Below, piece after piece: positions 1-57,700 of a DNA stretch of 64,000 bases. Position 1 is the stretch's first letter. Every line of letters begins with the position of its first letter. Origin of the DNA: Hyaloperonospora brassicae (Eukaryota; Oomycota; Peronosporomycetes; Peronosporales; Peronosporaceae); contig CANTFL010000174.1 in NCBI GenBank assembly GCA_947650285.1, forward strand, positions 434,001 through 498,000, read 5' to 3'. The translations under genes and the position numbers were made by a program. The notes beneath the pieces were generated by a model. The model was not told where the DNA came from. It saw nothing but the letters and a program-made list of their open reading frames with translations, and ran no database searches.

Positions 1-662
1 AAACATTCGGCGCCGCCTGTGCCCTTGCACAGTCGCCTAAAGCTTAATCCACAATGTAATGATCATCTACATTGCGATCTTAGACAGTCGTGCTAACGAC
101 CGTACCACAAGTGAGGCCATAGCACTCACTCTGACTTCACCCACACACTTGTGGGCGTTCAGAGACGTTCATTAGATGGCCAGCTGATGAACAAGCGGCA
201 GGCATCTTGACGGATCGATGCTGCCAGCTCACCATTGGCTTGTATCTCATAAGCCAAGACAACCCTAGTATGACGTCGAACTTTTCATCCAGGTCCTCTA
301 CGATGAAATCATCATCGTACTGTTCGTCTTCCAACGTGTAGTGGATTCCTAATATACGTTTCTTAACAGTAATTGATGCGCCTATCCGCTTGGAGCACCG
401 TCATCCTCGTTGAGGAAGTGTCACGCATATAAACATATAGCCTTCCATGCTCTAATGACTGGCGACGAACAAAATCGCTCGACCTTCTACAGTCAATACG
501 GGCACGAAGTGACCAGTCCTTCGTCACTTCAAGCGTTAATATGATAAAGGACACCTCATCCCCATGTGCAGAGACACACAGTGACTGTGTGTCGGGAGCA
601 ACCTTCGTCAAGCGGTTTGCAAATTATCTTGATGTTGCTGAATCAGTAGGGCGCTCCTCCTC
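1..662 (-). pseudogene. pol remnant (protease region) of decayed gypsy element
   Basis: Two open minus-strand pieces (363-611 and 137-334) match the start of the pol protein encoded at 21725 onward. The first covers the aspartic protease region. Its active-site stretch reads DCRRSS where the intact copy reads DCGASN, so the catalytic motif is lost. The second covers the segment ending in the ILGLSWL block and the following Cys/Gly stretch. The two pieces lie in different frames, and the gene continues off the left edge. This is a dead copy. Confidence 0.85.
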
Positions 663-1781
663 CTACTGACCCCTATCATTTTTGATGACCACCTTGCTGT
701 TGCGTCTTTGCAAAGGCGCCAGATCCTCATCCTCCAACTTTCTCAGCTGGTGGACGGTCACTTCGCTCAGTACCGCGATGTTCTGAGCGGGGGAGACTGC
801 ATTCATATGCGTAATTTTCCAACTTGTGACAGCGATGGTATTTCAGTATTCGCTTGTCATTGGGACGGCGAGAATTCTCTCCCTCTACCACACAGAGGTC
901 TATTGGCTCTGGACCTCCGACCGCCGGTTGTCTCTGTGGACGATAAGGGGTGAACGTAGTGAGGGCCTGTCTCAAACTTAGATCTTCCTGCTCCTCTGTG
1001 TAGATCGCTTCTGAGAGCGTCTTCAGCTCTCCGCGGAACAGGCGATCTCTGACGGGGCCATCTGAAAGTCCTTGAATGAGTATTGTGATCAACACAAATT
1101 CACTCCCAGGGTTTGCTACCATGCAACTTGCAAGGTAACACACATGTTGAGCGTAAGCGTGAACTTTACGCTTACCCTGTTTGATTTCAAGAAGCTCTGA
1201 TAGAGTCCTGAACTCTGCCCTTGGCGGCTCAAACGTTTCGCTGAGTAGGGTCGCTAAGATCCTCAACGATCCGAACACATTCGGGTCGTGCAACTTGAGG
1301 TTCAAGGCCCAAGCTCTGGCTTCTCCTGCCCGATTAGACTGAGCGAATGAGACTTGCATTCGCTCATCGTCGATGCGACGGGACTCGATGGCACCGTCTA
1401 CCTCGACGAATCATCTCAACAGGAAATCTTCCTCGATTTTCCGATACTTGGAAATCACTAACACAAGGGTATCCCGTCGACGCTCACGCGTCGACTCTGC
1501 GGACTAATACTGTTGCTGTCTCAGCACTCCAGTCCGCTGATGATCTTGTTGTCACAACAAGATCGCCTCTGCTTGCGACACATCAAGTTCTCGTTGCATG
1601 AACTTGCCGATGACGGAATACAGCCATCCCTGCCCCTTGAGGACAGCATAGTCTAGACAGGTTCCTCGCCAACGGCCGAACTCATTCGTTCGATCGCACT
1701 CCAGTCGATGTCGCTCAAATGGGAGTAGCTTTCACGTGTTCCGTGAAAGATGTCGTCATTTACGTCGTCCGACATGTTCAT
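663..1781 (-). pseudogene. gag remnant of decayed gypsy element
   Basis: The position matching the intact gag start codon is 1781, and the former stop region is near 663-668. The best open part is 727-1359 (210 aa). It matches the capsid and nucleocapsid portion of the intact gag, including the FEPPRAEF, HAYAQH and GGPEP blocks. The CCHC zinc knuckle is broken: the first Cys is Tyr and the His is Asn. The N-terminal third is out of frame with the rest. The frameshift run equivalent to the intact element's six A residues has only five here (79-83 bases into the 600s, positions 679-683), another sign of decay. Confidence 0.85.
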
Positions 1782-1831
1782 GTTGGGCGATGTGCTAGTG
1801 GTCCTTGGACGGACTACAAAGTGCTACCAGG

Positions 1832-2269
1832 TGTAACGGGTCGCCGACAGCTACTTACTGGTCTGCCAGTATGAAGTCAACTTTCACTGACAACAGAGAA
1901 GGTCAGTGCCCTGCTAAGTTTAAGCACTACGCAGAGGAAGAGTAAACAACTAAGGCAAGGCTCTAGTTGTATGAAAAGTAAAACTGCTATTTAATGCGAC
2001 TAAGTTTTATAACTCTTGTTTCCATGTTTGTCTTGAATTAATCATTAGATACAACTAAACGTATGCTGACGTCTACTCACCATTCATTGCGCCCTAATAG
2101 CAGCCATTGGTGGTTTGATATGTGCACAATATCAACCAATGAGAAGGCCCTTCGGTCATCTCATAATATCACTATGATTCGTGATATTGTTGAAGGTTTA
2201 TTGAATGAAATATCCGTTAGTATCATTTTGCACAATGATAAGTTTCATATAATGGTCAACCCCGTGATA
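1832..2269 (-). repeat. Degenerate 5' LTR (438 bp) of the left gypsy copy
   Basis: Starts with TGTAACGGG and ends with CCCCGTGATA, decayed forms of the inverted LTR ends seen at 20088 and 20475. The block matching the LTR part around CAATGAG/ATTGGTGG/GATAT is recognisable at 2085-2215. The outer half is strongly diverged. The adjoining 1812-1829 is the primer-binding site, the reverse complement of the one at 20478. Confidence 0.8.
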
Positions 2270-20082: not shown

Positions 20083-20087
20083 ATATC
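20083..20087 (+). repeat. Target-site duplication ATATC, left
   Basis: ATATC immediately before the LTR, repeated exactly at 28074-28078. Five bases is normal for Ty3/gypsy integrases. Confidence 0.9.
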
Positions 20088-20475
20088 TGTAACGGGGCAG
20101 CCCGTTACATGATATTGTCACTTAAGGAAAGTGACAATAAAGAATATAAGATGGATATTCTTTAAACAATATCACCAAAGTGGTGATATTGAAGGGTCGA
20201 CCAAAGGGTCTGTTCATTGGTTGAAATCTTGATGATATCAACCCACCAATCGCCGCAAGACGCGCGCAATGAGTGGTGACGAGACGTCACCATACATGCA
20301 GTTATATTAGTATAATTGAATTAAGTCAAACGAAGAGACAGTAGTTTAAAGACTTAATTTATTAATATAACAGTTCTACTTTTACCCTACCTACGCTTCC
20401 TCGCTTGCCACGTGTACGTCCGTCGGGGCACCCAAATCCCTTGCGTTAAGTTACGCAAGGGTGTGCCCCGTTACA
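20088..20475 (+). repeat. 5' LTR (388 bp)
   Basis: Begins TGTAACGGGG and ends CCCCGTTACA, a 10-bp inverted terminus. The first 22 bp already form a hairpin (9-bp stem 20088-20096 with 20101-20109). Further hairpins follow, including 9-bp stems around GTGACAATAAAG and the CAAAG loop. A larger nested stem (GGGGCAC with GTGCCCC, enclosing CTTGCGT with ACGCAAG) closes the 3' end. Confidence 0.97.
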
Positions 20476-20477
20476 CC

Positions 20478-20495
20478 TGGTAGCACTTTGTAGTC
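20478..20495 (+). promoter_or_regulatory. Primer-binding site for minus-strand DNA synthesis
   Basis: TGGTAGCACTTTGTAGTC starts two bases after the LTR. The opening TGG pairs with the universal CCA end of a tRNA. The same sequence follows the LTR of the left copy (1812-1829). The tRNA was not identified. Confidence 0.75.
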
Positions 20496-20519
20496 CTTCC
20501 AAGGACCACATCATCCAAC

Positions 20520-21674
20520 ATGAACATGTTGGATGAAGAAGACACCTTTCACGCCACGCGTGAAGGGTTTACCCATTTGAGTGACATCGAATGGGGTGCG
20601 GTAGAACGAATGAGTTCTACCGTAGGCGAACTCGTCGTCAGCACCATGTTGGAGTCTCTAGACAGAGACCAACAACATGCTGCTATCGCCAAGTTCATTC
20701 ACAATGAACTTGCTCTCGAGAGGGAGAAAGTAGCCTTGCTTTACCAGCAAGGCTCTCAACAGGCCGAGCAGTTGAGAGAACTCGGTGCTCAACAGACGGA
20801 GCTGTTGAGACAGCAGCAATTCCATGCTGCTGTGGGCGGGACGGCGCATGCGCGTCGTCCCGAAGTGATGAAAGTCGACATCTCCAAGTACAGTGGAGTC
20901 CCGGAGGACTCCCTGTTACTATGGTTTGTCGAACTCGACAGAGCCCTAAGGGCTCGTCGCGTCGAAGATGAGCAAATGAAACTCACATTTGCTCAGACCC
21001 ACTTGGCAGGGCGTGCCAAAACTTGGTCCCTGGGACTCGAGAGTAGCGACCCAAATGTGTTTAGGTCGCTAGATGACTTCAAGTCCCGGCTCAGACAAAC
21101 GTTTGAGCCGCCACGTGCTGAGTTCAGGGCTCGTTCAGAGCTCCTGAAACTCAAGCAGGGTAAGCGTGATGTGCACGCTTACGCACAACATATACGACTC
21201 CTTGCGAGTAGTATAACTGCAAACCCAGTTCATGAACACACGTTGATTACGGTGTTCATGCAAGGGCTCGCAGAAGGGCCCGTCAGGAGCCACCTGTTCC
21301 GCCTTGAGCTGAATACGCTTGAAGAAGCGATATCAGCCGCGGAACAGGAAGACTTTAGCATGAGACAGGCTCATGCTAGCTCAAACTCTTACCGTCCACC
21401 GAGACGACAAGAGATCGGAGGTCCAGAACCAATGGACCTCTGTTATGTTGAGAGCGAGAGACCTCGCTCTACAAGCAACAAGCGATTGCAGAGGTGCAAT
21501 CGCTGTCAGAAGTTAGGGCACTACGCATACGAGTGTAGTGCTCCGCGCCCAGTACCAAACAGTACTGAGCGAAATGGACGACCATTCGCCAGAAAGGGCA
21601 ATGGGCGTGGGTCCAGCGCTGTTGCGAAGCCGCAACAGCGAGACGGGCCATCAAAAAATGGTCGGGGTCAGTAG
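20520..21674 (+). CDS. gag: Gag polyprotein of gypsy element
   Basis: 384 aa. It forms the virus-like particle that packages the element RNA. Residues 60-100 are a charged, Gln-rich helix, probably coiled coil. Residues 118-285 are the retrotransposon gag (capsid) domain with blocks KVDISKYSG, WFVELDRAL and HAYAQHIR. Residues 326-339 are a complete CCHC zinc knuckle (C-x2-C-x4-H-x4-C), followed by a basic tail. The start ATG lies inside an 11-bp hairpin (20512-20535). A second ATG follows two codons later. The stop TAG (21672-21674) lies in the stem of the frameshift hairpin. The decayed gag at 663-1781 is its relative. Confidence 0.96.
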   Translation: MNMLDEEDTFHATREGFTHLSDIEWGAVERMSSTVGELVVSTMLESLDRDQQHAAIAKFIHNELALEREKVALLYQQGSQQAEQLRELGAQQTELLRQQQFHAAVGGTAHARRPEVMKVDISKYSGVPEDSLLLWFVELDRALRARRVEDEQMKLTFAQTHLAGRAKTWSLGLESSDPNVFRSLDDFKSRLRQTFEPPRAEFRARSELLKLKQGKRDVHAYAQHIRLLASSITANPVHEHTLITVFMQGLAEGPVRSHLFRLELNTLEEAISAAEQEDFSMRQAHASSNSYRPPRRQEIGGPEPMDLCYVESERPRSTSNKRLQRCNRCQKLGHYAYECSAPRPVPNSTERNGRPFARKGNGRGSSAVAKPQQRDGPSKNGRGQ

Positions 21675-21693
21675 GGGCGGAGCGCCCTACTGA
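21653..21693 (+). promoter_or_regulatory. Programmed -1 ribosomal frameshift signal between gag and pol
   Basis: In the gag frame the codons TCA AAA AAT give the heptamer A AAA AAT (21653-21659), a standard slippery site. Eight bases later a hairpin begins, with a 9-bp stem (21668-21676 with 21685-21693) and an 8-nt loop. It covers the gag stop. The -1 frame is open from the slippery site into pol. The arrangement matches known -1 signals in retroelements. Use in the cell is inferred. Confidence 0.8.
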
Positions 21694-21724
21694 TCCAGCA
21701 ACCTCAAGAGAATTTGCAAACCTC

Positions 21725-24700
21725 TTGACGAAAGTTGCTCCAGATACACAATCATTGTGTGTCTCTGCACCTGGTGATGACGTTTCGCTCATCACCTTTA
21801 AGTTGGAAGCGACAAATGACTTGTCGCTTCGTGCCCTAGTAGACTGTGGGGCGTCGAACAACTTTGTTCGTCGCCAGTCACTAGAGGGTCGTAGGCTCAA
21901 GTTCGTTGAGCGCGACATTCCCCTCACAAGGATGACGGTGCGCCTTGCAACAGGCGCATCGATAACCGTTGAGAAACGTGTAGTAGGAATCCACTACACG
22001 TTAGAGGGCGAGCAGTACGATGATGATTTCATCGTACTAGATCTGGATGACAAATTTGATGTCATCCTGGGATTACCTTGGCTCAGAAAATACGAGCCAA
22101 GGGTGAGCTGGCAGCATCGATCCGTGAAGATGCCTGCTGCTTGTTCATCAGATGGCCATCTGATGAACATCTTGGAGCGTCCACAAGCGTGTGGATGTTC
22201 TGCGAGTGAGTGCGATGGCCTCACTTGCGGTACGGTCGTTAGCACGACTGCACAAGGTCACAGTGTAGTTGATCACTACACTGTGGAGCAAGCTCCCGGC
22301 GGCTGTACAGAAGTACAGGCTGCGCCGAAGGTCCACCACTCGAATAAGTCGAGTGGACCGGGACATGGATGCATGCCTAGCGGGCAGCATCTTAGAAGAA
22401 ATAAATCTGTTGCCCCCAAGGGGCAACATGAAAATCCTAGGTCGACTGGAGAGTCGACCGTAGAGGATCGGTTCCTGACTGTGGTTGCACAGCCACAGTC
22501 GGAAGACGTCGAGGGAATAAGTCCCCACGTACTTGAGGAAGGAATTCCTCAAGAGTTGCTTGCTGAGGGATCAGGCCCTCAGCAACCTGTGGAAGCAAGA
22601 TCCCAGGAAGAAACCGAGACGTTGAACGTCTTGGTTAATGACGGATCGAGCGTAGGCGCTTATACGCTTGATCTGATTGTGCCTCCGAAGTTGACTTCGG
22701 AGATAACTCAGTTGCCAACGCTAGAACCGAAACGGTTCTTGCGTGATCTGCGTAGTGGCAAAGTCAAGCAGATCTGCGTACTCGTCACAGAAGACGAGTA
22801 TGTGACCGACATTCGGTCGGCAACAGTATTTGCTGAGAACGAACGGGTTCTCAGCAGCTCATCGATGGACGAAAGTGTCCTCGATGAGAAGACTCGGATT
22901 GAGCGATACGCGTCCCAATCCTGGGAGTCACTTCAGGCAAATCCTTTGTATACGGATTTGATCGAATTCAGGGATGTGTTCCCTGAATCCGTACCTTGCG
23001 AGTTGCCTAAGGACAAAGGCACTCGACACGAGATCGAGCTCAAACCGGGCTCGAAATACTGTGTCATGAAGCAGTGGCCACTGCCTCGTGAACAAGTGAT
23101 AGCGATCGACAAGTTCTTTGCCGATCGCTTAGCAGCGGGCCATTTGAGGGAATCAACATCCCCTCACAGCTCTCCGACCTTATGTGTGCGAAAGGCCACA
23201 GGAGGGTGGCGGATAGTGCACGCATTCAACAAGTTGAATGCTGCAACGGTACCGGCTCAGACGCCGATACCGAGGAAGGACGTAATCATAGATGGTATGT
23301 CAAAGAGTACCATCTTTTCGTCCATGGATCTGATGGATGGATTCTATCAGATCCTGATGCGTGAACGGGACGTCCCGTTCACAGCAGTGAGTACCCCCAG
23401 CGGGATGCTGTGGGAGTGGCTAGTGATGCCACAGGGGCTGAGTAATGCCCCTGCAACATTCAACAGATGTGTAACAAATCTGTTGAGACCGGTGCGAGAC
23501 TTCGCACCGAGTTACTTCGACGATGTGTTCGTCCATAGCCGGGCTATGGACGGGAAGACGGACGTTGAAGTTCACAGAACTCACGTTCGTCAGGTTCTTC
23601 AACTTATGCGCAAGCATAAGTTGTACGCCAACCTCAAGAAGTGTATATTCGCGGCTAGCGAAATACCACTTCTTGGGTGCATCGTGGGGAAACACGGCGT
23701 ACGCCCTGATCCCGAAAAGATCAAGGCGATCACCGACTGGCCAGTGCCAGTCGATGTCAAGGGACTTCGAAAGTTCCTTGGTCTTGCGGCGTACTTGCAC
23801 AAGTACTCGCGCAACTACGCCGAGATGACGGTACATCTTTCTTGCTTGCTCAAGAAAAATGTCAAGTGGTCATGGAACGCTGAGTGCCAGCGTTCCTTTG
23901 AAGGTATCAAGCAAAGCTTGATGCAATCGCCGATCTTGGCGATTGCAGATCAGGACAGACCATTTCATGTGGTCTGTGACGCCAGCGATTTCGCAATCGG
24001 CTGTGCGTTAATGCAGTTCGATGCAGATGGCGCGGAGCGCGTCATCTGTTATCAATCGCGTCAGCTGCAAGCAGCTGAGCGTAATAACCCAGTGCATGAC
24101 AAGGAACTCCTTGCCATGAAATACACACTGGCTAAATTTCGCGTCTATCTCTTGGGAGATAGACCGTTTGTTGTCTACACGGACCATGCGTCATTACGCA
24201 CGGCCGTAAACAGCCCACACCTCTCGCAAAGAATGGCGAGGTGGCTGTCTTTCTTCGCGGAGTATAACTTCTCCGTGGAGTATAAACCGGGACGACTCAA
24301 TGTCGTCGCGGATGCTCTTTCGCGCCGGCCCGATTTCGAGCCGGACGCGCAATCCAACAGTGAGGACAAGCCCACTGTTGCGACACTGTCAGTCAGTGTC
24401 CCGTCGTCAAGTTTACTTGACGACGTACGAAAGGCATACGCGGAAGATAAGGATCTTCTACGATTGATGGATCATCTGGTGAATCCATCCAGTAAATCCA
24501 TGAGGGATTTACCGGCTTTGTACCGATCCTCATCGGATCGGTATAGTACACGCAACGGATTGCTGTACTATACAGCTGTTACCGACGACACGCCTCGTGT
24601 CGTCGTACCCGCTCATCATGATTTGCGATTGCGCATCATGTATGAGTGTCACGATGCCCCAACAAGCGGCCATCGTTGTAGAGAAAAGACTTACCTCACG

Positions 24701-25951
24701 GTAAGTCGCGACTTTTACTGGCCCCGCCAGTATCAGTTTGTTCGCAAGTACATCCGTGCTTGCGAAGTATGTCAACGGGTGAAGCCTAGTCCTTCATCCC
24801 GTGCGCCATTGCAGCCTCTGCCTGTTCCGACAGAGTGCTGGCAGTCCGTTTCAATGGACTTCGTCTTCGGGTTTCCCGAAGACGCTCAAAAGAATAATGG
24901 TATTCTTGTGTTTGTGGACCGATTCAGCAAGATGGTCCATCTTGCTGCTGTCCCTGAGTCAATCAAGGCTCAAGGTTGTGCTCGTGTCTTTCTAGACACG
25001 GTCTTTAGACTCCAAGGGTTACCCCGTGAACTCGTATCCGACCGTGACCCTCGGTTCACGGCGGAATTTTGGCAAATCGTGTTCCGTACTCTCGGAACAC
25101 GATTGAAGATGTCCACTTCTGACCATCCAGAAACAGATGGTCAGACGGAACGTGCGAACCGTGTCCTCGAAGAGATTCTTCGAGGATATGTCCACTCGTT
25201 TCCGAGTTGGAGCGAATTCCTACCCATGGTGGAATTCGCCATCAATAATTCGGTGCATGCTTCAACACAGCACACACCGTTTTACGTGAATGGCCTACGC
25301 CATCCACGTGTGCCCACCCTTCTAGAGTGTGACTCTTGGATAAGGGGGGGAGGGACTCGCTCGAGCAAAAACCATTTTGGCTCTTGCTCATCACGTGTCG
25401 ACGCAAACGTCGTCACGTATGATGCCGATGTCGATCAAGTCGACATCGATGAAGAAGATCATCTCAATAATAGCGAAGACGCTATTATTGATTCGGATGA
25501 TGATGACGATGCTGGTATATTCAGCATCGCCAACGATTATTCCAGCGAGGAAGAAGACAACCTCGCTGAAGAAGAGAGCAATCTCTTAGCAGTGCGCACG
25601 AAGCGAACTGCTAGACAAAACAAAGAGTCAGCAGAGAACTTCCTGCTGACTCGAGAAGCGGTAGTCCGTTTCGTTCAGGACTCCATCGCAAATGCGGTGG
25701 ACCGTCAGAAACGGAACGCAGACAAGAATGGAAGAGCAAATGTTCTTTCATTTAAGGTTAATGACCTAGTACTACTGTCAACGGTAAACCTACCTGGACA
25801 TGCAGTCACTAGTGTCGGCAGTAGTAAACTACTGCCGAAATACATTGGGCCATTTCGAGTGTTGCAACGCAAGGGCAATGCATACACACTCGAATTGCCA
25901 CGTAGGATGCGCACGCATCCTACGTTTTACGTGGGTAGGCTTAGGTCTTAA
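21725..25951 (+). CDS. pol: Pol polyprotein: protease, reverse transcriptase, RNase H, integrase
   Basis: The frame is open from the frameshift site at 21653. 21725 is a TTG, so no own start is likely and expression should be by -1 frameshift. Counting from 21725, the aspartic protease site is DCGAS at residues 40-44. Reverse transcriptase has YFDD at 597-600 after a QGLSNAPATFNR block. RNase H (about 745-860) has VVCDASDF and YTDHASL. Integrase has an H-x5-H ... C-x2-C zinc site, then catalytic D1045, D1106 and E1142 with the usual 35 residues between the last two. An acidic Asp/Glu/Ser-rich insert (about 1235-1285) precedes the GPF module (YIGPFRVL, then PTFYVGRL). All catalytic residues are present. 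The frame ends in TAA at 25949-25951, before the chromodomain. Confidence 0.96.
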   Translation: MTKVAPDTQSLCVSAPGDDVSLITFKLEATNDLSLRALVDCGASNNFVRRQSLEGRRLKFVERDIPLTRMTVRLATGASITVEKRVVGIHYTLEGEQYDDDFIVLDLDDKFDVILGLPWLRKYEPRVSWQHRSVKMPAACSSDGHLMNILERPQACGCSASECDGLTCGTVVSTTAQGHSVVDHYTVEQAPGGCTEVQAAPKVHHSNKSSGPGHGCMPSGQHLRRNKSVAPKGQHENPRSTGESTVEDRFLTVVAQPQSEDVEGISPHVLEEGIPQELLAEGSGPQQPVEARSQEETETLNVLVNDGSSVGAYTLDLIVPPKLTSEITQLPTLEPKRFLRDLRSGKVKQICVLVTEDEYVTDIRSATVFAENERVLSSSSMDESVLDEKTRIERYASQSWESLQANPLYTDLIEFRDVFPESVPCELPKDKGTRHEIELKPGSKYCVMKQWPLPREQVIAIDKFFADRLAAGHLRESTSPHSSPTLCVRKATGGWRIVHAFNKLNAATVPAQTPIPRKDVIIDGMSKSTIFSSMDLMDGFYQILMRERDVPFTAVSTPSGMLWEWLVMPQGLSNAPATFNRCVTNLLRPVRDFAPSYFDDVFVHSRAMDGKTDVEVHRTHVRQVLQLMRKHKLYANLKKCIFAASEIPLLGCIVGKHGVRPDPEKIKAITDWPVPVDVKGLRKFLGLAAYLHKYSRNYAEMTVHLSCLLKKNVKWSWNAECQRSFEGIKQSLMQSPILAIADQDRPFHVVCDASDFAIGCALMQFDADGAERVICYQSRQLQAAERNNPVHDKELLAMKYTLAKFRVYLLGDRPFVVYTDHASLRTAVNSPHLSQRMARWLSFFAEYNFSVEYKPGRLNVVADALSRRPDFEPDAQSNSEDKPTVATLSVSVPSSSLLDDVRKAYAEDKDLLRLMDHLVNPSSKSMRDLPALYRSSSDRYSTRNGLLYYTAVTDDTPRVVVPAHHDLRLRIMYECHDAPTSGHRCREKTYLTVSRDFYWPRQYQFVRKYIRACEVCQRVKPSPSSRAPLQPLPVPTECWQSVSMDFVFGFPEDAQKNNGILVFVDRFSKMVHLAAVPESIKAQGCARVFLDTVFRLQGLPRELVSDRDPRFTAEFWQIVFRTLGTRLKMSTSDHPETDGQTERANRVLEEILRGYVHSFPSWSEFLPMVEFAINNSVHASTQHTPFYVNGLRHPRVPTLLECDSWIRGGGTRSSKNHFGSCSSRVDANVVTYDADVDQVDIDEEDHLNNSEDAIIDSDDDDDAGIFSIANDYSSEEEDNLAEEESNLLAVRTKRTARQNKESAENFLLTREAVVRFVQDSIANAVDRQKRNADKNGRANVLSFKVNDLVLLSTVNLPGHAVTSVGSSKLLPKYIGPFRVLQRKGNAYTLELPRRMRTHPTFYVGRLRS
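25341..25350 (+). promoter_or_regulatory. Candidate central polypurine tract inside pol
   Basis: TAAGGGGGGG is identical to the decamer at the 3' polypurine tract (27670-27679) and is followed by AGGG. Some retroelements and lentiviruses prime a second plus strand from such a central copy. That use is inferred here. Confidence 0.4.
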
Positions 25952-27545
25952 TGTCAGTACGAGCCTTCTTCTTTCGATGAAGATAGCCCCCACGTTCAAG
26001 AACATCCATCAAGTTCTTGCGTTCGCGCTCCAGACGATCCGTCTGGTCGCGCAGATATGATACCTCGGAGCTCAACCGAGATATCTCCCCGTGAGCTGTC
26101 GCCAGCTCGCCGAATAGAGAGCGGACATCCCGCTCAACCTGAAGCTGCGCTGTGGCAAAATCGTCGCGATCCCTCGCCCGATCAGCCTCGTGATCCTTGC
26201 GGTCCTTCCACACGGAATCAGTCAAAGCGTAGCGCCGGTCGCGCTCGTGCTTCAAGTCATCGCGCAATTCATCGATTGCGTGATCCATCTCGTAAGGGTC
26301 GAGATGGTGAGCCGAATCATCTGGAGGAAGTCTTTCCTCCTCCACCACATCCTTTGGTGGATGCTCACGGTGATCAACGCTTTCTAGTGGAGCGTATCTT
26401 GAATCACCGTGACGATTCAGGATCAAGGACGAGCTACCTCGTCCAGTGGCCGGGGTATCCACCCTTTTGGAACAGCTGGGAGCCCCGCTCTCAGCTGTTG
26501 ATGGGAGTTGAAGGTCTCGTCCGCCAGTATGACGAGATCCATCCGATGAGTCCTGTGGTCCATCGGTAAACACGCGCCCTAGGCGCTTGTAGACGGATTG
26601 CAAGTTTGCAATCGCGTCACGCATCTCAGCCGAGATGTGTGCCCTTCCCCAGGGCGAATTTAGGAAATACACATCCCTATGTGCACGCTGCGAGTTGTCA
26701 ACACAAATCGCACAAGGGTCTCCCCATGTGAGGCAAGGAATGCCTGCCTCACTCGATAAACAATGCAACCGGTACCTAGCACCGGTTGGCGTTCGCCTTT
26801 CGAACCTGAGGCGTGTCGCCTCAAGTTTCTTGAGCCACCCTTCTCGTCCAAAATTCTGTACGTTTTGGACGAACGCGTTCCACGCAGCCAAAAGCGATGC
26901 TTTGTCACGCTTTTGGTTGCTGTTGTACCATCGATGTCTAAGAAAGACATCGAGATAAAAATCTTCTTCAGCGCGAAAGTTCTTCGCGCTGGAACTCAAG
27001 CCGTGAAGCTCAGTTGCATCGAATAAGGGTATTCGATGGTGTTGGCCTGTCTCGTGAGACAGGCTATTGATGAGCCGTTCAGGCAAACGCCACGGCTTCA
27101 ACTCATCACGCTTCACAGTGGTACCCTTGTCGGTACCACGGCTCCCAGATTGACGACGGCTCGCGCCATCGTCATCACGCTCGTGCGAAGACGCACGAGC
27201 CGGTGGTGGTAAGGAATAATATTCCTCACCACCCTGATCATCATCATCATCACTGCCGAACAGACTGTGATGAAAATCACGAGTCCGTTCGTTCGGCAGT
27301 GGCCTTGGCGAATACTGAGGCGTCGCCGGTGAGCGAGACGCCTCTGGAGCATTGCCCGAGTCAGACACGTCTGACTCGCCAGAGTAGATGACCTCTATGT
27401 CAGGGTCATCGTGCGCACGCGGTGTGATACCGCGTGCACCTGCAGCACCTGTTGCTGCAGGCGAAGAAGGGGCGGCAGACGACAAAGAGTCTGCCGCAGA
27501 GGCTGGCAAAGCACCGGGCTGTGTAGGTCTTGAGTCACCTCGCAT
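25941..27545 (-). CDS. Antisense ORF, 534 aa, unknown function, inside the gypsy element
   Basis: I do not recognise this protein family. It runs opposite to gag-pol, ends 11 bp inside the 3' end of pol and starts 138 bp before the 3' LTR. The N-terminus (1-90) is Ala/Ser/Pro-rich with an acidic IEVIYSGESD block (50-59). Residues 99-103 are an Asp run. Residues 150-325 look like a folded core with WRLPERLINSL, FLRHRWY and VYFLNSPWGRAH and possible metal ligands C262, C271, C278 and C281. Residues about 412-522 are highly charged with heptad character, probably coiled coil, and end in a basic tail (HRKKKAR). A decayed relative in the same position of another copy (39489-40965) shows amino-acid similarity and many silent changes, which favours real coding. 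Antisense extra ORFs are known from some plant Ty3/gypsy elements. Any link to them is inference. Confidence 0.7.
   Translation of the reverse strand: MRGDSRPTQPGALPASAADSLSSAAPSSPAATGAAGARGITPRAHDDPDIEVIYSGESDVSDSGNAPEASRSPATPQYSPRPLPNERTRDFHHSLFGSDDDDDQGGEEYYSLPPPARASSHERDDDGASRRQSGSRGTDKGTTVKRDELKPWRLPERLINSLSHETGQHHRIPLFDATELHGLSSSAKNFRAEEDFYLDVFLRHRWYNSNQKRDKASLLAAWNAFVQNVQNFGREGWLKKLEATRLRFERRTPTGARYRLHCLSSEAGIPCLTWGDPCAICVDNSQRAHRDVYFLNSPWGRAHISAEMRDAIANLQSVYKRLGRVFTDGPQDSSDGSRHTGGRDLQLPSTAESGAPSCSKRVDTPATGRGSSSLILNRHGDSRYAPLESVDHREHPPKDVVEEERLPPDDSAHHLDPYEMDHAIDELRDDLKHERDRRYALTDSVWKDRKDHEADRARDRDDFATAQLQVERDVRSLFGELATAHGEISRLSSEVSYLRDQTDRLERERKNLMDVLERGGYLHRKKKARTDIKT
25952..26569 (+). 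pseudogene. Sense-strand chromodomain segment, cut off from pol by a stop codon
   Basis: The pol frame continues open after the TAA at 25949-25951 up to a stop at 26567-26569. Near its end (about 26373-26490) it encodes a chromodomain: RFLVERILNH, YLVQWPGYPP and WNSWEPRSQL, with the aromatic residues expected for a methyl-lysine pocket. In gypsy integrases of this type the chromodomain targets insertion to marked chromatin. An ATG at 26057 could start it separately, but a single nonsense mutation in pol is the simplest reading. The whole segment overlaps the antisense ORF. Confidence 0.8.
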
Positions 27546-27669
27546 AGAGATGTTAACTATGCGAGGTCAAGCGGAAAGTAAATGGAACGGACCCAACAAG
27601 TGCTCCCTGTCCCAATGGTGGCCAACGGGTGGCCTCCATATTTTCGATAGTCACACGGTGACTATCAGC

Positions 27670-27682
27670 TAAGGGGGGGTGA
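27670..27682 (+). promoter_or_regulatory. Polypurine tract (plus-strand primer)
   Basis: TAAGGGGGGGTGA directly before the 3' LTR. A 9-bp hairpin (27646-27654 with 27658-27666, loop ACG) sits just upstream. Confidence 0.9.
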
Positions 27683-28073
27683 TGTAACGGGGCAGCCCGT
27701 TACATGAAATTGTCACTTTAAGGAAAGTGACATTAAAGAATATGAAGATGGATATTCTTTAAACAATATCGCCAAAGTGGTGATATTGAAGGGTCGACCA
27801 AAAGATCTGTTCATTGGTTGAAATCTTGATGATATCAACCCACCAATCGCCGCAAGACGTGCGCAATGAGTGGTGACGAGACGTCACCATACATCCAGTT
27901 ATATTAGTATAGTTAAGCTAAGTCAAACAGAGAGACAGTAGTTAAAAGACTTAATTATATTAATATAACAGTTCTGCTTTTACCCTACCTACGCTTCCTC
28001 GCTTGCCACGTGTACGTCTGTCGGGGCACCCAAATCCCTTGCGTTAAGTTACGCAAGGGTGTGCCCCGTTACA
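27683..28073 (+). repeat. 3' LTR (391 bp)
   Basis: Same ends as the 5' LTR. Differences cluster around AGTATA(A/G)TT near 27910. Most hairpins of the 5' LTR are kept. Confidence 0.97.
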
Positions 28074-28078
28074 ATATC
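28074..28078 (+). repeat. Target-site duplication ATATC, right
   Basis: Exact match to 20083-20087. Confidence 0.9.
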
Positions 28079-54722: not shown

Positions 54723-57700
54723 TGGTAGAATAAATTGTATAAGATAGCTCGTGATTCAGGTGACTTAGAATTATAGGTTAGAAAAGACGAAAATATAAAA
54801 TGCATATATATATATTCTCGTTCTTGTGTACTTGAAGGTGTTCGCTCGTTCTAAGGAATGTACCAACCACATCGTGCATCATTACCAAATCATCCATGTA
54901 CCTAACCTTAACCCTGGCACCAATTACTGCAAAATGTTAAGCATGTCTATCGGTGTAGGCGTGCGGAGCAGATTTTGGCGGACGTATGAGTGAATTCACA
55001 ATTTAGTTGCTCTTACGTAAAAACCTTCCTCCTATTAAAGTTTTTTTATCAATTAATTTCTGTATGTTTTATTTTTTGGTACGCTATTGATATCTAAGTT
55101 GGGACTGTTGGTATCCAGACCGATCGATTCACGCCTGAGCCAAATATTGGCTATAAAATCACACTAATCAAGGTATATACTTCATCTAATGTTACCAGAA
55201 ATACGGCAATTTCTAGCGCACAATATATACTGTGGCCCTCACTATTTAACTAGCAACACTAACCGTTGCGCACACTATTTTTCGTAATCAGTGTACAAAA
55301 TTAAAAAAATCTAAATATCGAGTCGGTATAGATGTTTGTCTTCAATAAAAAGTATTTGGCTCAGGACCACATTCCGGCTTTAGAGCATCAGCGACGACAT
55401 ATCGTCATAGCGTGTCATTTTTGGGGAAATCCTATTCTCTAAACATATTGACAGCTAACTATCTATACTCATCGCGAAAGTGGGCTGCTAGCGGCTAGGC
55501 GTAATGAGAACCGTCATTATGTAGAAAAACGGCATATCTGAAAGAAAATCGACGAGAACTTACGCCAGCCTATACATGCAAGAATGGTGTTTGACAGCAT
55601 GACAAAGCATATGCACTTGGCTGGTGTCAGTAACATATATATAGCACACGATGTTCTGTGCGTCTTGGTAAGGTATTGCATCAATGCACTGCTGTTGGCG
55701 ACATTGCTGAAGTCATACCCACATAAAATAGTCTGTAGTAGTCTTCAATCGACCCCACAGTAGAATGTAGTAAGCGTCAATTTATTATGGTAAAGAAGCT
55801 GATGCTTAACATCATAAGATAACAAATCCGGCTCCCTCAACATACGAATGAGATGATCCTTATGATGGGAGAGGCCGCGCGAGTATTCGTGCAAATACAC
55901 CGATTTTTTAAAAACCCTGCGAAATCACTTGAAAATGACTAGCACTGTCTAGTTAGCGTTCTCAATACTCTCATCAGTATTTAAGCGTACGTCGTATCAT
56001 CTAACGATGCACCATAAACCTTGTATTTCGCTAGCTTCAAAACATACACTTAAAAGAGATGCACTGGTTAAAATTGACATATAGCTTCTGCTAGTGCAAA
56101 GGTGCTAGCATTTATTGTTCGTAGAGTCGGTCAAGTTCTACATTAGTCTTATCGTTTATCGGTGGACTAAGAACTAAAATGTCATTATAATCGTTAAAAC
56201 GAAATGTCACACTGGTCTTGATTAATTACTACAATATTTTTGTTTGTTTGCTGGTGTATTAAAAGACTTGAAGCACAACCACCTAACAACATAAGGTATT
56301 ATCGGTAATCTCACTTCTGTGGACAAAATATTTCAAATTGGCATTAGGATAGAATATTTGCGATACATCAGAATCATGGACAAAATTAGTATTTAACATT
56401 CCACCGACAATGAAATTATGTTGTGTATCGGCGTCTGATTTTGACTATTGTAGCGTTTAATTTCTTAAGTGCGACCGCTATCCCATATCATCTTGTTGTT
56501 GTTGCACACAGAAGGTCTATCATACTTGTGGGGATGGATAAATTTCTAACATGGCCTGCTGCTAGTCGATCAGAAGTTGTAATTTGCGATGACTCAGTCA
56601 AGTGGGAATGGATATTGTATCCTATCAAAGTAAATTGAACGTGTTCAGTCAGATTTCGAGAATACTACTTACAAATATTCTTTGTTCGCACGGCACAGCT
56701 CAAAAGAATGGATCCTTGACTTCAACGAATTAATGGATACTAAAGCATCTTGCTCAATCCGAGGCTTTATATCAATGTCAATGCCGTCAATCTATGATTT
56801 GATGAATCGCTGTGCGCTTTCATCGTATACAAATGTCGACAGTATGTCGGCCGTGTACTCGTCCTCTGCTACGAGTACGCGGATATGCTATAGCTTGCGA
56901 CTACGAAAATCTTGAAAACACATACGAATTGGCGGCGGGAAAATCAGTCCAATATGACTCTCTCTCATAAACTATAATATTAAGTTCATGATCGCCTTTC
57001 CGCATATAGGCATCAGATACGACATCAAATGTCTTAGTCTTCTCCTGGTTTCTAGTAAGCTCAGATTACAAAAATCTTCGTTTCTTTAATATTTACCTTA
57101 GGCTTTGGTTTGTGAACATTTTAAAACTTATTAGCATCCCGGCTTCTATTGGTGATTAGACTACTGAAGCCAGTTTGTCTTTGAAAGAATCTGCATCAAA
57201 TATATTAATACCTATTACTTATTAAGGTAAGCAGAAAAACATTTTCATCACATATAATTGTGAACTATATGCGTCTTACTCATCAAACGCTGCTCGATTT
57301 ACATACGTCATTTTTAATTTTTTAACACGTGTTCTAGTGGAGAATATTTTCTGGACTAGTTGTGCTCTAACGTCTTTGTCGGCTGATTGCTTCACAATGT
57401 AATGGTCGTCTAGCACGATGATGCCTTGTGCAAATTTGCCAAATAATATGTATAATTAGTTCCATCTCACTCACTCGCAAATAATTTACGCTCTCGTAAA
57501 TTCTTCACGACAATCACGATTTAATGTATCAGTCGCAGGGATTTTCACGGACCCTTTCTACCAGCTGATCCAAGGATCTCACCAAGTGAGCCATGATGGA
57601 CATAAAAGGTTAGCTTACAATCCGTACGTGACTAAAGTCCTTCATATATAATTCAATAGCCCACAGTCAACAGCGGATCAAAGAAACATGGTCGTATGAC

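Follow-up and report, generated by a model that had tools for sequence, protein, structure and literature searches.

A Ty3/gypsy retrotransposon family of Hyaloperonospora brassicae written as a string of local Watson-Crick hairpins

The window analyzed here, a stretch of 64,000 nucleotides from the oomycete Hyaloperonospora brassicae (contig CANTFL010000174.1 of assembly GCA_947650285.1, positions 434,001 to 498,000), carries at 20088..28073 on its forward strand a Ty3/gypsy LTR retrotransposon with a chromodomain that consists, over its whole length, of consecutive local hairpins with Watson-Crick pairs only, encoded through its codon choice. Counted as perfect inverted repeats with a stem of at least 7 and a loop of at most 12 bases, there are 133 of them in the 1-kb bins 20 to 27 (134 in the element proper) or ca. 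17 per kb, compared with 83 elsewhere in the window. When the 17 within the first 2 kb, the site of a decayed relative, are set aside, 66 remain in ca. 54 kb or 1.2 per kb. The original prediction had named 17 stem/loop examples and two perfect palindromes, and all 19 match letter for letter at their coordinates. As an explanation, we favor, at a probability of roughly 45%, selected self-folding of both complementary strands that perhaps counters hybridisation-based silencing, a function that we infer.

The element is classified by an LTR pair with a short duplication, by gag followed by protease, reverse transcriptase (RT), RNase H and integrase, and by a chromodomain downstream of the integrase. 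Its LTRs (20088..20475 and 27683..28073, both +) are 95% identical and the target-site duplication, the 5 bp direct repeat ATATC, lies on both sides of the element (20083-20087 and 28074-28078). The 5' LTR, hairpin-rich too, is 99% identical to at least 39 other LTR matches in the genome, which also contains at least 150 RT matches with at least 97% protein identity. The gag gene (20520..21674, +) has matches to Retrotrans_gag and Ty3_capsid, a zinc knuckle match under the curated cut-off and a start codon sitting within the hairpin at 20512-20535. The pol frame with its domain matches (21569..25951, +) lies in the -1 frame with respect to gag and is open from 21569 onward; a likely -1 frameshift signal between the two is found at 21653..21693 (+). 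There, the heptamer A AAA AAT (21653-21659), which we take to be a slippery sequence, is followed by an 8-base spacer and a hairpin spanning the gag stop codon (21668-21693), and a heptamer with a hairpin occurs also in three more distant families (L069, L070 and L071). Further downstream, the element carries a chromodomain ORF (26057..26569, +; PF00385, E 3.7e-11) and an antisense ORF of 534 amino acids (25941..27545, -; from the ORF list) that has no match in Pfam; three other families have an antisense ORF in the equivalent position. The decayed relative (3..2265, -; ca. 71% identity) comprises an LTR, gag and the start of pol and has 8 to 9 inverted repeats per kb.

Composition, codon bias or chance as the source of the hairpins were rejected by synonymous-codon shuffles (100 per ORF). 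Inverted repeats number 21 in gag compared with 1.75 in the shuffles (sd 1.3, maximum 5), 68 in pol (21725-25948) compared with 4.5 (sd 2.0, maximum 12), 36 in the RT-RNaseH-integrase part compared with 2.4, 27 in the antisense ORF compared with 2.0 and 6 in the chromodomain ORF compared with 1.07, whereas the three host ORFs used as controls stay near their shuffles (CCT5, 2 vs 1.5; an ABC transporter ORF, 2 vs 1.2; ORF 16907, 3 vs 1.1). The claim that the pattern runs through LTRs, gag, pol and antisense ORF and spares CCT5 is thus borne out, with a density that is neither that of the shuffles nor equaled in CCT5. A hairpin "almost every 30-60 bp", as had also been claimed, holds as a mean but not as a rule, because spacing is random (gap CV 1.10 vs 0.99 for random placement) with gaps of up to 162 bases for stems of at least 6 and 238 bases for stems of at least 7; regular tiling was therefore rejected. 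The excess is limited to loops under ca. 25 bases, and neither direct nor mirror repeats are enriched in the element. Overlap with the antisense ORF was rejected as a cause because gag, pol and the LTRs outside the overlap are equally hairpin-rich. Stem and loop together most often span 23 bases (27 of 139 hairpins), but spans in coding sequence peak at 20, 23 and 26, a codon effect, so that a 23-base ruler was set aside and not built upon. With stems of at least 8 and loops of at most 12, the variation in span is smaller in the window's own copy (W), L070, L069 and L079 than if stem and loop lengths were independent; this reduction is absent in L070 with loops up to 20 (p 0.48) and in the 3' part of W (p 0.38), and the distance spectrum of single complementary bases was uninformative. 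The two perfect palindromes, confirmed by letter check, lie at 22142..22169 (28 bp, with 9 to 11 of its 14 pairs retained in seven relatives) and 23361..23382 (22 bp).

Hairpin richness is a family trait. All 30 family loci surveyed, on many contigs and including the window's own, have 17.0 to 18.4 inverted repeats per kb. Thirty other RT-bearing loci, which are the best RT-profile matches with several copies from the same families among them and probably copia-like judging from the length of the RT match, have 0 to 1.6 per kb, and hairpins as a general retroelement property in this genome were rejected on these grounds. Across the gypsy clade, the density falls from 17 per kb in the window's family over 9 in L070, 5 in L069 and 4 in L074 to 2 in L071, and two other, distant gypsy loci have 0.25 and 1.25. 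None of the 18 pattern matches from a scan of IMG/VR was a relative, and no description of a hairpin-tiled retrotransposon was found in titles and abstract openings among the literature matches listed.

Predicted folding of the element is strong and the same on either strand. In 120-base windows, folding energy exceeds that of synonymous shuffles by 39% to 43% in gag and pol and by 31% to 32% in the antisense ORF, on both strands in each case, compared with 0% to 6% in the three host ORFs; in 350-base windows, gag and pol lie 44% to 51% beyond shuffles, about twice the value of MS2. Folding energy beyond codon-preserving shuffles along the genome is a feature expected of genome-scale ordered RNA structure, and the element has it. 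Wobble pairs are not favored, with G.T no more frequent in stems than A.C: In 3.5 kb, the mismatches inside stems that are fixed in half or more of the copies comprise three G.T, six A.C and nine others, and stem counts are 214, 228, 214 and 210 when GU, AC, AG or CT, respectively, are allowed besides Watson-Crick pairs. Across both strands, G.U makes up 4% to 7% of pairs in predicted folds compared with 7% to 13% in MS2, Qbeta, CCT5 and a shuffle. Most predicted pairing is local, with 72% to 82% of pairs spanning at most 30 bases (55% to 59% in MS2 and Qbeta), and a folding energy of -5 kcal/mol or lower is reached by 27% to 29% of 24-mers compared with 13% in shuffles. As far as such predictions go, Watson-Crick purity together with equal strand folding is unlike ordinary RNA-structure selection. 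The folding excess of MS2 is also fairly similar on its two strands, so that strand equality is not unique to the element, and the perfect stems of MS2 were too few to be informative as a positive control for wobble preference.

The hairpins keep the same positions in relatives at 72% to 76% DNA identity, where both partners have changed in 36 of 297 pairs compared with 15.1 in shuffles (0 of 500 as high) and 6 to 10 in a slid-structure control; the shuffle control ignores relatedness, and safer pair-count measures were used. Several compensatory changes fall within one stem in the hairpin at 20732. Comparison between subfamilies thus shows that the hairpins are old and maintained by compensatory change. 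Old relatives commonly have both G.T and A.C states in stems, as expected of decayed copies. In L006, a 94% relative compared over part of gag, 19 stem pairs have changed, of which 18 are broken and one has been compensated.

Variants among young copies avoid stems once they are shared. Three variants common to at least two copies lie in stems and 62 outside, compared with 66 and 176 singletons (odds ratio 0.13, p 3.7e-5), and at third codon positions only, shared variants occupy 3 of 384 stem and 44 of 734 non-stem columns (p 8e-4). The main test leaves out "weak" columns that are paired in a minority of copies (n = 114, with 25 singletons and nine shared variants); adding these to the stems gives odds ratios of 0.37 (p 0.0026) at all sites and 0.42 (p 0.031) at third positions. 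In five of six listed weak columns, the minor allele pairs with the listed partner, and one loses another pair. Shared variants affect 0.3% of columns in stems, 4.5% in loops and 2.7% between hairpins, with singletons at 5.6% in stems, 12.8% in loops and 7.8% elsewhere, so that the ratio of shared to private variants is reduced in stems alone and does not differ between loops and spacers. Stems defined by each copy in turn give a median odds ratio of 0.17, with a worst p of 0.055 (all sites) or 0.079 (third positions), and a replicate in the 3' part (seven copies) gives 0.35 (p 0.022). The gag genes of six young copies (W included) have only 22 polymorphic columns, all private and too few to test, and fixed differences to the 94% relative, found in 19 of 444 columns in stems and 70 of 1049 elsewhere, point in the same direction as the stem avoidance. 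Compared in this way, the copies show that hairpin structure is under purifying selection in the lineage that makes copies.

In the reading that we favor, selection would act on both complementary strands of the element, since a G.U pair is an A.C mismatch in the other strand and neither is tolerated more. The sense RNA and its complement, be it an antisense transcript or antisense small RNA, would each self-fold and be poor partners for annealing, so that RNAi and other silencing by hybridisation would be weakened, and the element's own reverse transcriptase would supply and mend hairpins by switching template. Strong folding keeps the strands of RNA phages from annealing. The antisense ORF counts in favor of selection on both strands, though L071, a family with few hairpins (2 per kb), also has an antisense ORF, so that such an ORF alone does not explain the trait. 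Small RNAs of both polarities, sense and antisense, are reported to map along two Gypsy elements of Phytophthora infestans (PMC3522703). Against the both-strand reading, we count the other RT-bearing families of the genome, which are multi-copy yet without hairpins, and the broken stems of L006. Randomly spaced hairpins with gaps of more than 100 bases and the limited share of well-folding 24-mers imply that any shield would be partial. The bolder version, with the whole genome of the element recoded as a shield against complementary RNA, sense, antisense and small-RNA strands all self-folding in preference to annealing, switching supplying the hairpins and selection keeping nearly each of them, seems rather doubtful to us.

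Less probable than the both-strand reading, though a serious contender, is genome-scale ordered structure of the sense genomic RNA alone, which would make the packaged or translated RNA more compact or more stable or would shield it, as in many positive-strand RNA viruses. The folding excess of 44% to 51% in gag and pol, constrained stems with free loops and the covariation would all fit, and structured transcripts are described to trigger a weaker RIG-I and PKR response (PMC3950689). With structured RNA virus genomes, the element shares folding far above shuffles along the coding genome, many consecutive stem-loops and no link to any single known signal. Those viruses reach an excess of 7% to 23% in the part of the coronavirus paper considered here (PMC7642675; different shuffling methods), with 15% for SARS-CoV-2 and 23.4% as the highest value then recorded for a vertebrate RNA virus, and the paper describes pairing positions as poorly conserved. 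Unlike them, the element is an LTR retrotransposon whose Watson-Crick-only stems are equal on both strands and kept with covariation. By a yardstick of our own and not from papers, selection on sense RNA should leave G.U tolerated above A.C in stems, which is not the case; this and the equally folding complement speak against a function confined to the sense RNA, as does the mostly local pairing. MS2 and Qbeta likewise combine a compact coding genome with strong local folding (MS2 on both strands), but their perfect inverted repeats number 2.0 and 4.6 per kb compared with ca. 17 in the element, and their folds have 7% to 11% G.U and more long-range pairing. Yeast Ty3, of the same superfamily, has a structured frameshift site, and its genomic RNA is described as a mosaic of which no more than ca. 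30% is stable and highly structured (PMC11381356). Of the RNA folding that the original prediction had proposed as a cause, selected folding is thus supported by compensatory change and stem avoidance, and packaging or stability of the sense RNA alone is a less probable purpose.

Mutational drive, i.e., template switching of the reverse transcriptase at quasi-palindromes that perfects functionless hairpins, is unlikely on its own. Template switching has been proposed both to create and to repair hairpins, and the cases described by Monttinen and Loytynoja (2022, PMC8794818) share loop inversions, stem extension and multiple compensatory changes with ours; those in the part considered are RNA genes, whereas more than 100 hairpins fill protein-coding sequence here. 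Loop inversion and stem extension between close copies, as expected of switching, were found among young copies: L040 has the 5-base loop of the hairpin at 22336..22356 exactly inverted, and L054 has the 8-base loop at 21665..21696 exactly inverted and the stem extended from 9 to 12 perfect pairs. Recombination between stem arms could also produce a loop inversion. Watson-Crick purity, strand symmetry and restriction to one gypsy clade fit mutational drive as well. However, unbiased correction should leave many paired double changes, and stem variation is not mostly paired and concerted, with more than one Watson-Crick type in 4 of 96 variable pairs across 30 young copies. These include a double, still-paired variant in a single copy (24741/24766) and a two-step change common to three copies (22778/22795; G-C in 21 copies, A.C in 6, A-T in 3). 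At the non-stem rate (44/734), ca. 23 shared variants would be expected in the 384 stem third positions and switching alone, which should turn ca. half of the corrected stem mutations into double variants that still pair, predicts ca. 11 such variants, compared with one shared case at all codon positions. Stem-breaking variants are rarely propagated, only one of ten private-change clusters is clearly a reverse-complement copy, and most variation among young copies is plain point mutation, in contrast to PMC8794818. We infer that template switching helps to create and mend hairpins, and the scarcity of paired double variants suggests that selection keeps them; the template-switch repair proposed originally is thereby supported by two loop inversions and a stem extension but falls short as the sole cause.

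Selection on DNA hairpins in single-stranded cDNA or as cruciforms, e.g., aiding strand transfer or excluding repair or recombination, would agree with strand symmetry, the lack of wobble preference and the hairpin-filled LTRs. We know of no step in LTR-retrotransposon replication that requires more than 100 hairpins, and the 30 other RT-bearing loci in this genome lack them, as do two distant gypsy loci, making this quite improbable. An artefact of composition, codon usage, assembly or chance, for which no supporting point was found, has a negligible chance given exact examples, a 12- to 15-fold excess over synonymous shuffles in gag and pol and an equal density at all 30 family loci measured.

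With about twice the folding strength of MS2 in coding sequence and selection on it, the element lies well above the RNA-virus values given in PMC7642675, and it illustrates that synonymous sites in mobile elements can be far from neutral. Its relatives, spanning 2 to 17 hairpins per kb, form a natural series for asking what genome-wide structure does, whether it is a response to RNA silencing and whether structure can be built into coding DNA by template switching.

Positions 20088-28073 hold a Ty3/gypsy LTR retrotransposon, studied here within a genome assembly of 100.6 Mb in 898 contigs. It is bounded by two LTRs and a 5-bp target-site duplication (ATATC) and encodes gag, protease, RT, RNase H and integrase, as well as an ORF with a chromodomain. 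In database comparison, its gag shares 73% identity with Peronospora matthiolae sequence and up to 92% with others, which points to a probable downy-mildew oomycete as host. Gag and pol occupy separate frames, with the pol frame open from 21569, and are probably joined by a programmed -1 frameshift signal at 21653-21693, where an A AAA AAT heptamer and an 8-base spacer precede a hairpin (21668-21693) over the gag stop, an order that we take to be typical of such signals. A heptamer followed by a hairpin also occurs in three families with pol ca. 55-57% identical (A AAA AAC in L069 and L070, G GGA AAC in L071). On the minus strand lies an ORF of 534 aa (25941-27545) with no Pfam match. Antisense ORFs of 448-534 aa that overlap the chromodomain-bearing 3' coding region occur in four related families (also L085 846-2225, L086 312-1658 and L087 697-2133, all minus strand); identity between those of L069 and L070 is 43%, and the window's version has no significant similarity to those of the other three families.

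The window copy itself has a stop codon that ends pol ahead of the chromodomain frame (25949-26569), while other copies have open pol frames of up to 1,666 aa. Identity to the compared copies is 97-99.7% in its 5' LTR, gag and pol but mostly 91-98% in its 3' part (26060-28073), and its two LTRs differ by 5% though the target-site duplication is intact, so that by sequence it looks like a mosaic or a gene conversion product. At L006 (G000:C845:339075-342462), two elements apparently abut at one LTR, and the 5' part of the second matches the window copy at ca. 94% identity; a further remnant at 55673-56917 (minus strand) shows 27% identity to the pol RT region.

The original prediction held that the whole element is written as consecutive short hairpins, and all 19 examples cited for it proved exact on checking. 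Counting perfect inverted repeats with stems of at least 7 and loops of at most 12, we found 133 in the 20-27 kb bins; the remainder of the window has 1.2/kb when its first 2 kb are excluded, which carry 8-9/kb and comprise the LTR, gag and pol start of a decayed relative (ca. 71% identical). Stems of 7-10 pairs and loops of 3-6 bases are the most frequent, the enrichment ends at loops of ca. 25 bases, and neither direct nor mirror repeats are enriched in the element. Inverted repeats in gag and pol are 12- to 15-fold above synonymous codon shuffles, while three host ORFs including CCT5 are close to expectation. The predicted folding energy of 350-base windows lies above that of synonymous shuffles by 44.0% (coding strand) and 44.4% (opposite strand) in pol and by 51.4% and 46.2% in gag; the corresponding values are 22-27% and 15-24% for the RNA phage MS2 and 2.9% and 1.6% for CCT5. 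Hairpins are randomly positioned along the element. The third-to-third-position pairing register is under-used (gag 4/21, pol 11/68, expected 1/3; p 0.0007), as expected if hairpins were built inside the limits of the protein code. Across 20088-27682, the commonest stem-plus-loop span is 23 bases, spans show a three-base periodicity, and stem and loop lengths are negatively correlated, also in the relatives L070, L069 and L079; this is partly a codon effect.

The family has at least 150 copies in the assembly. Inverted-repeat density is 17.0-18.4/kb at 30 family loci found by their RT, counting the window's, and 0-1.6/kb at 30 other RT-bearing loci. The trait is graded inside the gypsy clade: five sister-subfamily copies (L075-L077, L079 and L080; 74-76% identical to the window copy) and old relatives (72-73%) have 7.6-13.4/kb, loci with pol 55-57% identical have 9.0, 5.0, 4.25 and 2.0/kb, and two more distant gypsy loci have 1.25 and 0.25/kb. 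The loci at 5.0 and 4.25/kb have many hairpins in common and probably form one family. In this L069 family, the 4-kb pol locus carries 5/kb versus 15 in the 1 kb beyond pol (L087 2000-3000), as if non-coding parts had been filled with hairpins first.

For 34 window-copy hairpins in eight sequences (the window and seven relatives), standard pairs occupy 84% of cells, a figure biased towards the window copy because the structure was taken from it. Both sides have changed in 36 of 297 pairs. The 500 shuffles average 15.1 (sd 2.8) and never reach that number, and sliding the partner, a control that, unlike the shuffles, keeps relatedness, gives 6-10. Many of these double changes fall on the branch separating the window family from the rest; in helix 31, A-U in four and G-C in four are split among the relatives, in helix 34 A-U in five and G-C in three. 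These alignments indicate that the hairpins are old and covarying.

Selection was assessed among 30 young copies over 3.5 kb, of which 29 share 97.1-99.6% identity with the window's. Singletons, which presumably arose mostly after insertion, fall at 66 stem and 176 non-stem positions, and variants common to at least two copies, presumably passed on via copying masters, at 3 and 62 (odds ratio 0.13, p 3.7e-5); these counts omit columns paired in a minority of copies, and counting them as stem gives 0.37 (p 0.0026). At pol third codon positions, shared variants affect 3/384 stem versus 44/734 non-stem columns (p 8e-4; singletons 32 and 74). When stems are taken only from the window copy, the proportion of columns holding a shared variant is 0.3% in stems, 4.5% in loops and 2.7% between hairpins, and that holding a singleton 5.6%, 12.8% and 7.8%; with stems defined by each copy in turn, the median odds ratio is 0.17 and the worst p 0.055. 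The 3' part, compared in seven copies, repeats the deficit more weakly (shared, 7/783 stem versus 43/1636 other columns; private, 39 versus 84; odds ratio 0.35, p 0.022). This pattern looks like selection for structure, since stems are constrained, loops are free and protein effects are controlled by codon position; its strength is approximate because the copies are related and shared variants few.

The main rival to a requirement on both strands is a purely sense-RNA role, as in viral genome-scale structure. Selection on the sense RNA only would be expected to tolerate G.U far better than A.C, which is not observed. Of the interior mismatches found in half or more of the young copies, 3 are G.T, 6 A.C and 9 other, and allowing G.U brings no more stems than the other mismatches would predict (214, versus 228 for A.C, 214 for A.G and 210 for C.T), nor does it in most relatives, the exception being the hairpin-poor L071 (G.U 69 versus A.C 45; A.G 68). 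Predicted folds of either strand of the window copy have 4-7% G.U, whereas those of MS2, Qbeta (another RNA phage), CCT5 and a codon shuffle have 7-13%, and pairs spanning at most 30 bases make up 72-82% in the former and 47-59% in the latter. The pairing requirement is thus strand-symmetric.

Loop inversions of the kind that template switching would leave occur at two sites when the hairpins are compared among young copies (56,463 hairpin-by-copy comparisons). L040 carries the 5-base loop of hairpin 22336 in exact reverse complement; L054 does so for the 8-base loop of hairpin 21668, whose stem has also lengthened from 9 to 12 perfect pairs. Loop inversion and stem extension are listed as template-switch footprints by Monttinen and Loytynoja (PMC8794818). 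No reverse-complemented loop was found in 1,379 comparisons with older relatives; a further candidate seen by eye, hairpin 21617 in L075 versus L077 (loop AAGT/ACTT), is a two-base difference only. Switching fails to explain the intact stems because only one of ten private-change clusters is clearly a reverse-complement copy and double changes that preserve pairing are scarce: of 96 variable pairs in young copies, 4 have more than one Watson-Crick type, one of them, 22778/22795, through a two-step change common to three copies. Our conclusion is that selection keeps the hairpins as structure, with template switching partly supplying or repairing them. Of the two causes originally offered, selected folding is supported, and template-switch repair may contribute to the supply or mending of hairpins but does not account for the upkeep of the stems.

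Genome-scale RNA structure and template-switch hairpins are both already known; among the papers listed by literature searches, judged by title and abstract start, none describes a protein-coding LTR retrotransposon so densely filled with Watson-Crick-only, strand-symmetric hairpins. As the simplest reason for two-strand folding, we propose that self-folded sense and antisense strands would anneal poorly. Against this step, the antisense ORF is also present in a hairpin-poor family, the element has hairpin-free gaps, and other families are multi-copy without hairpins. It would presuppose that Gypsy elements in this host give rise to small RNAs of both sense and antisense polarity, as reported for Phytophthora infestans (PMC3522703). 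What the strand symmetry of the pairing rule does suggest is that both complementary strands of the element need to fold.
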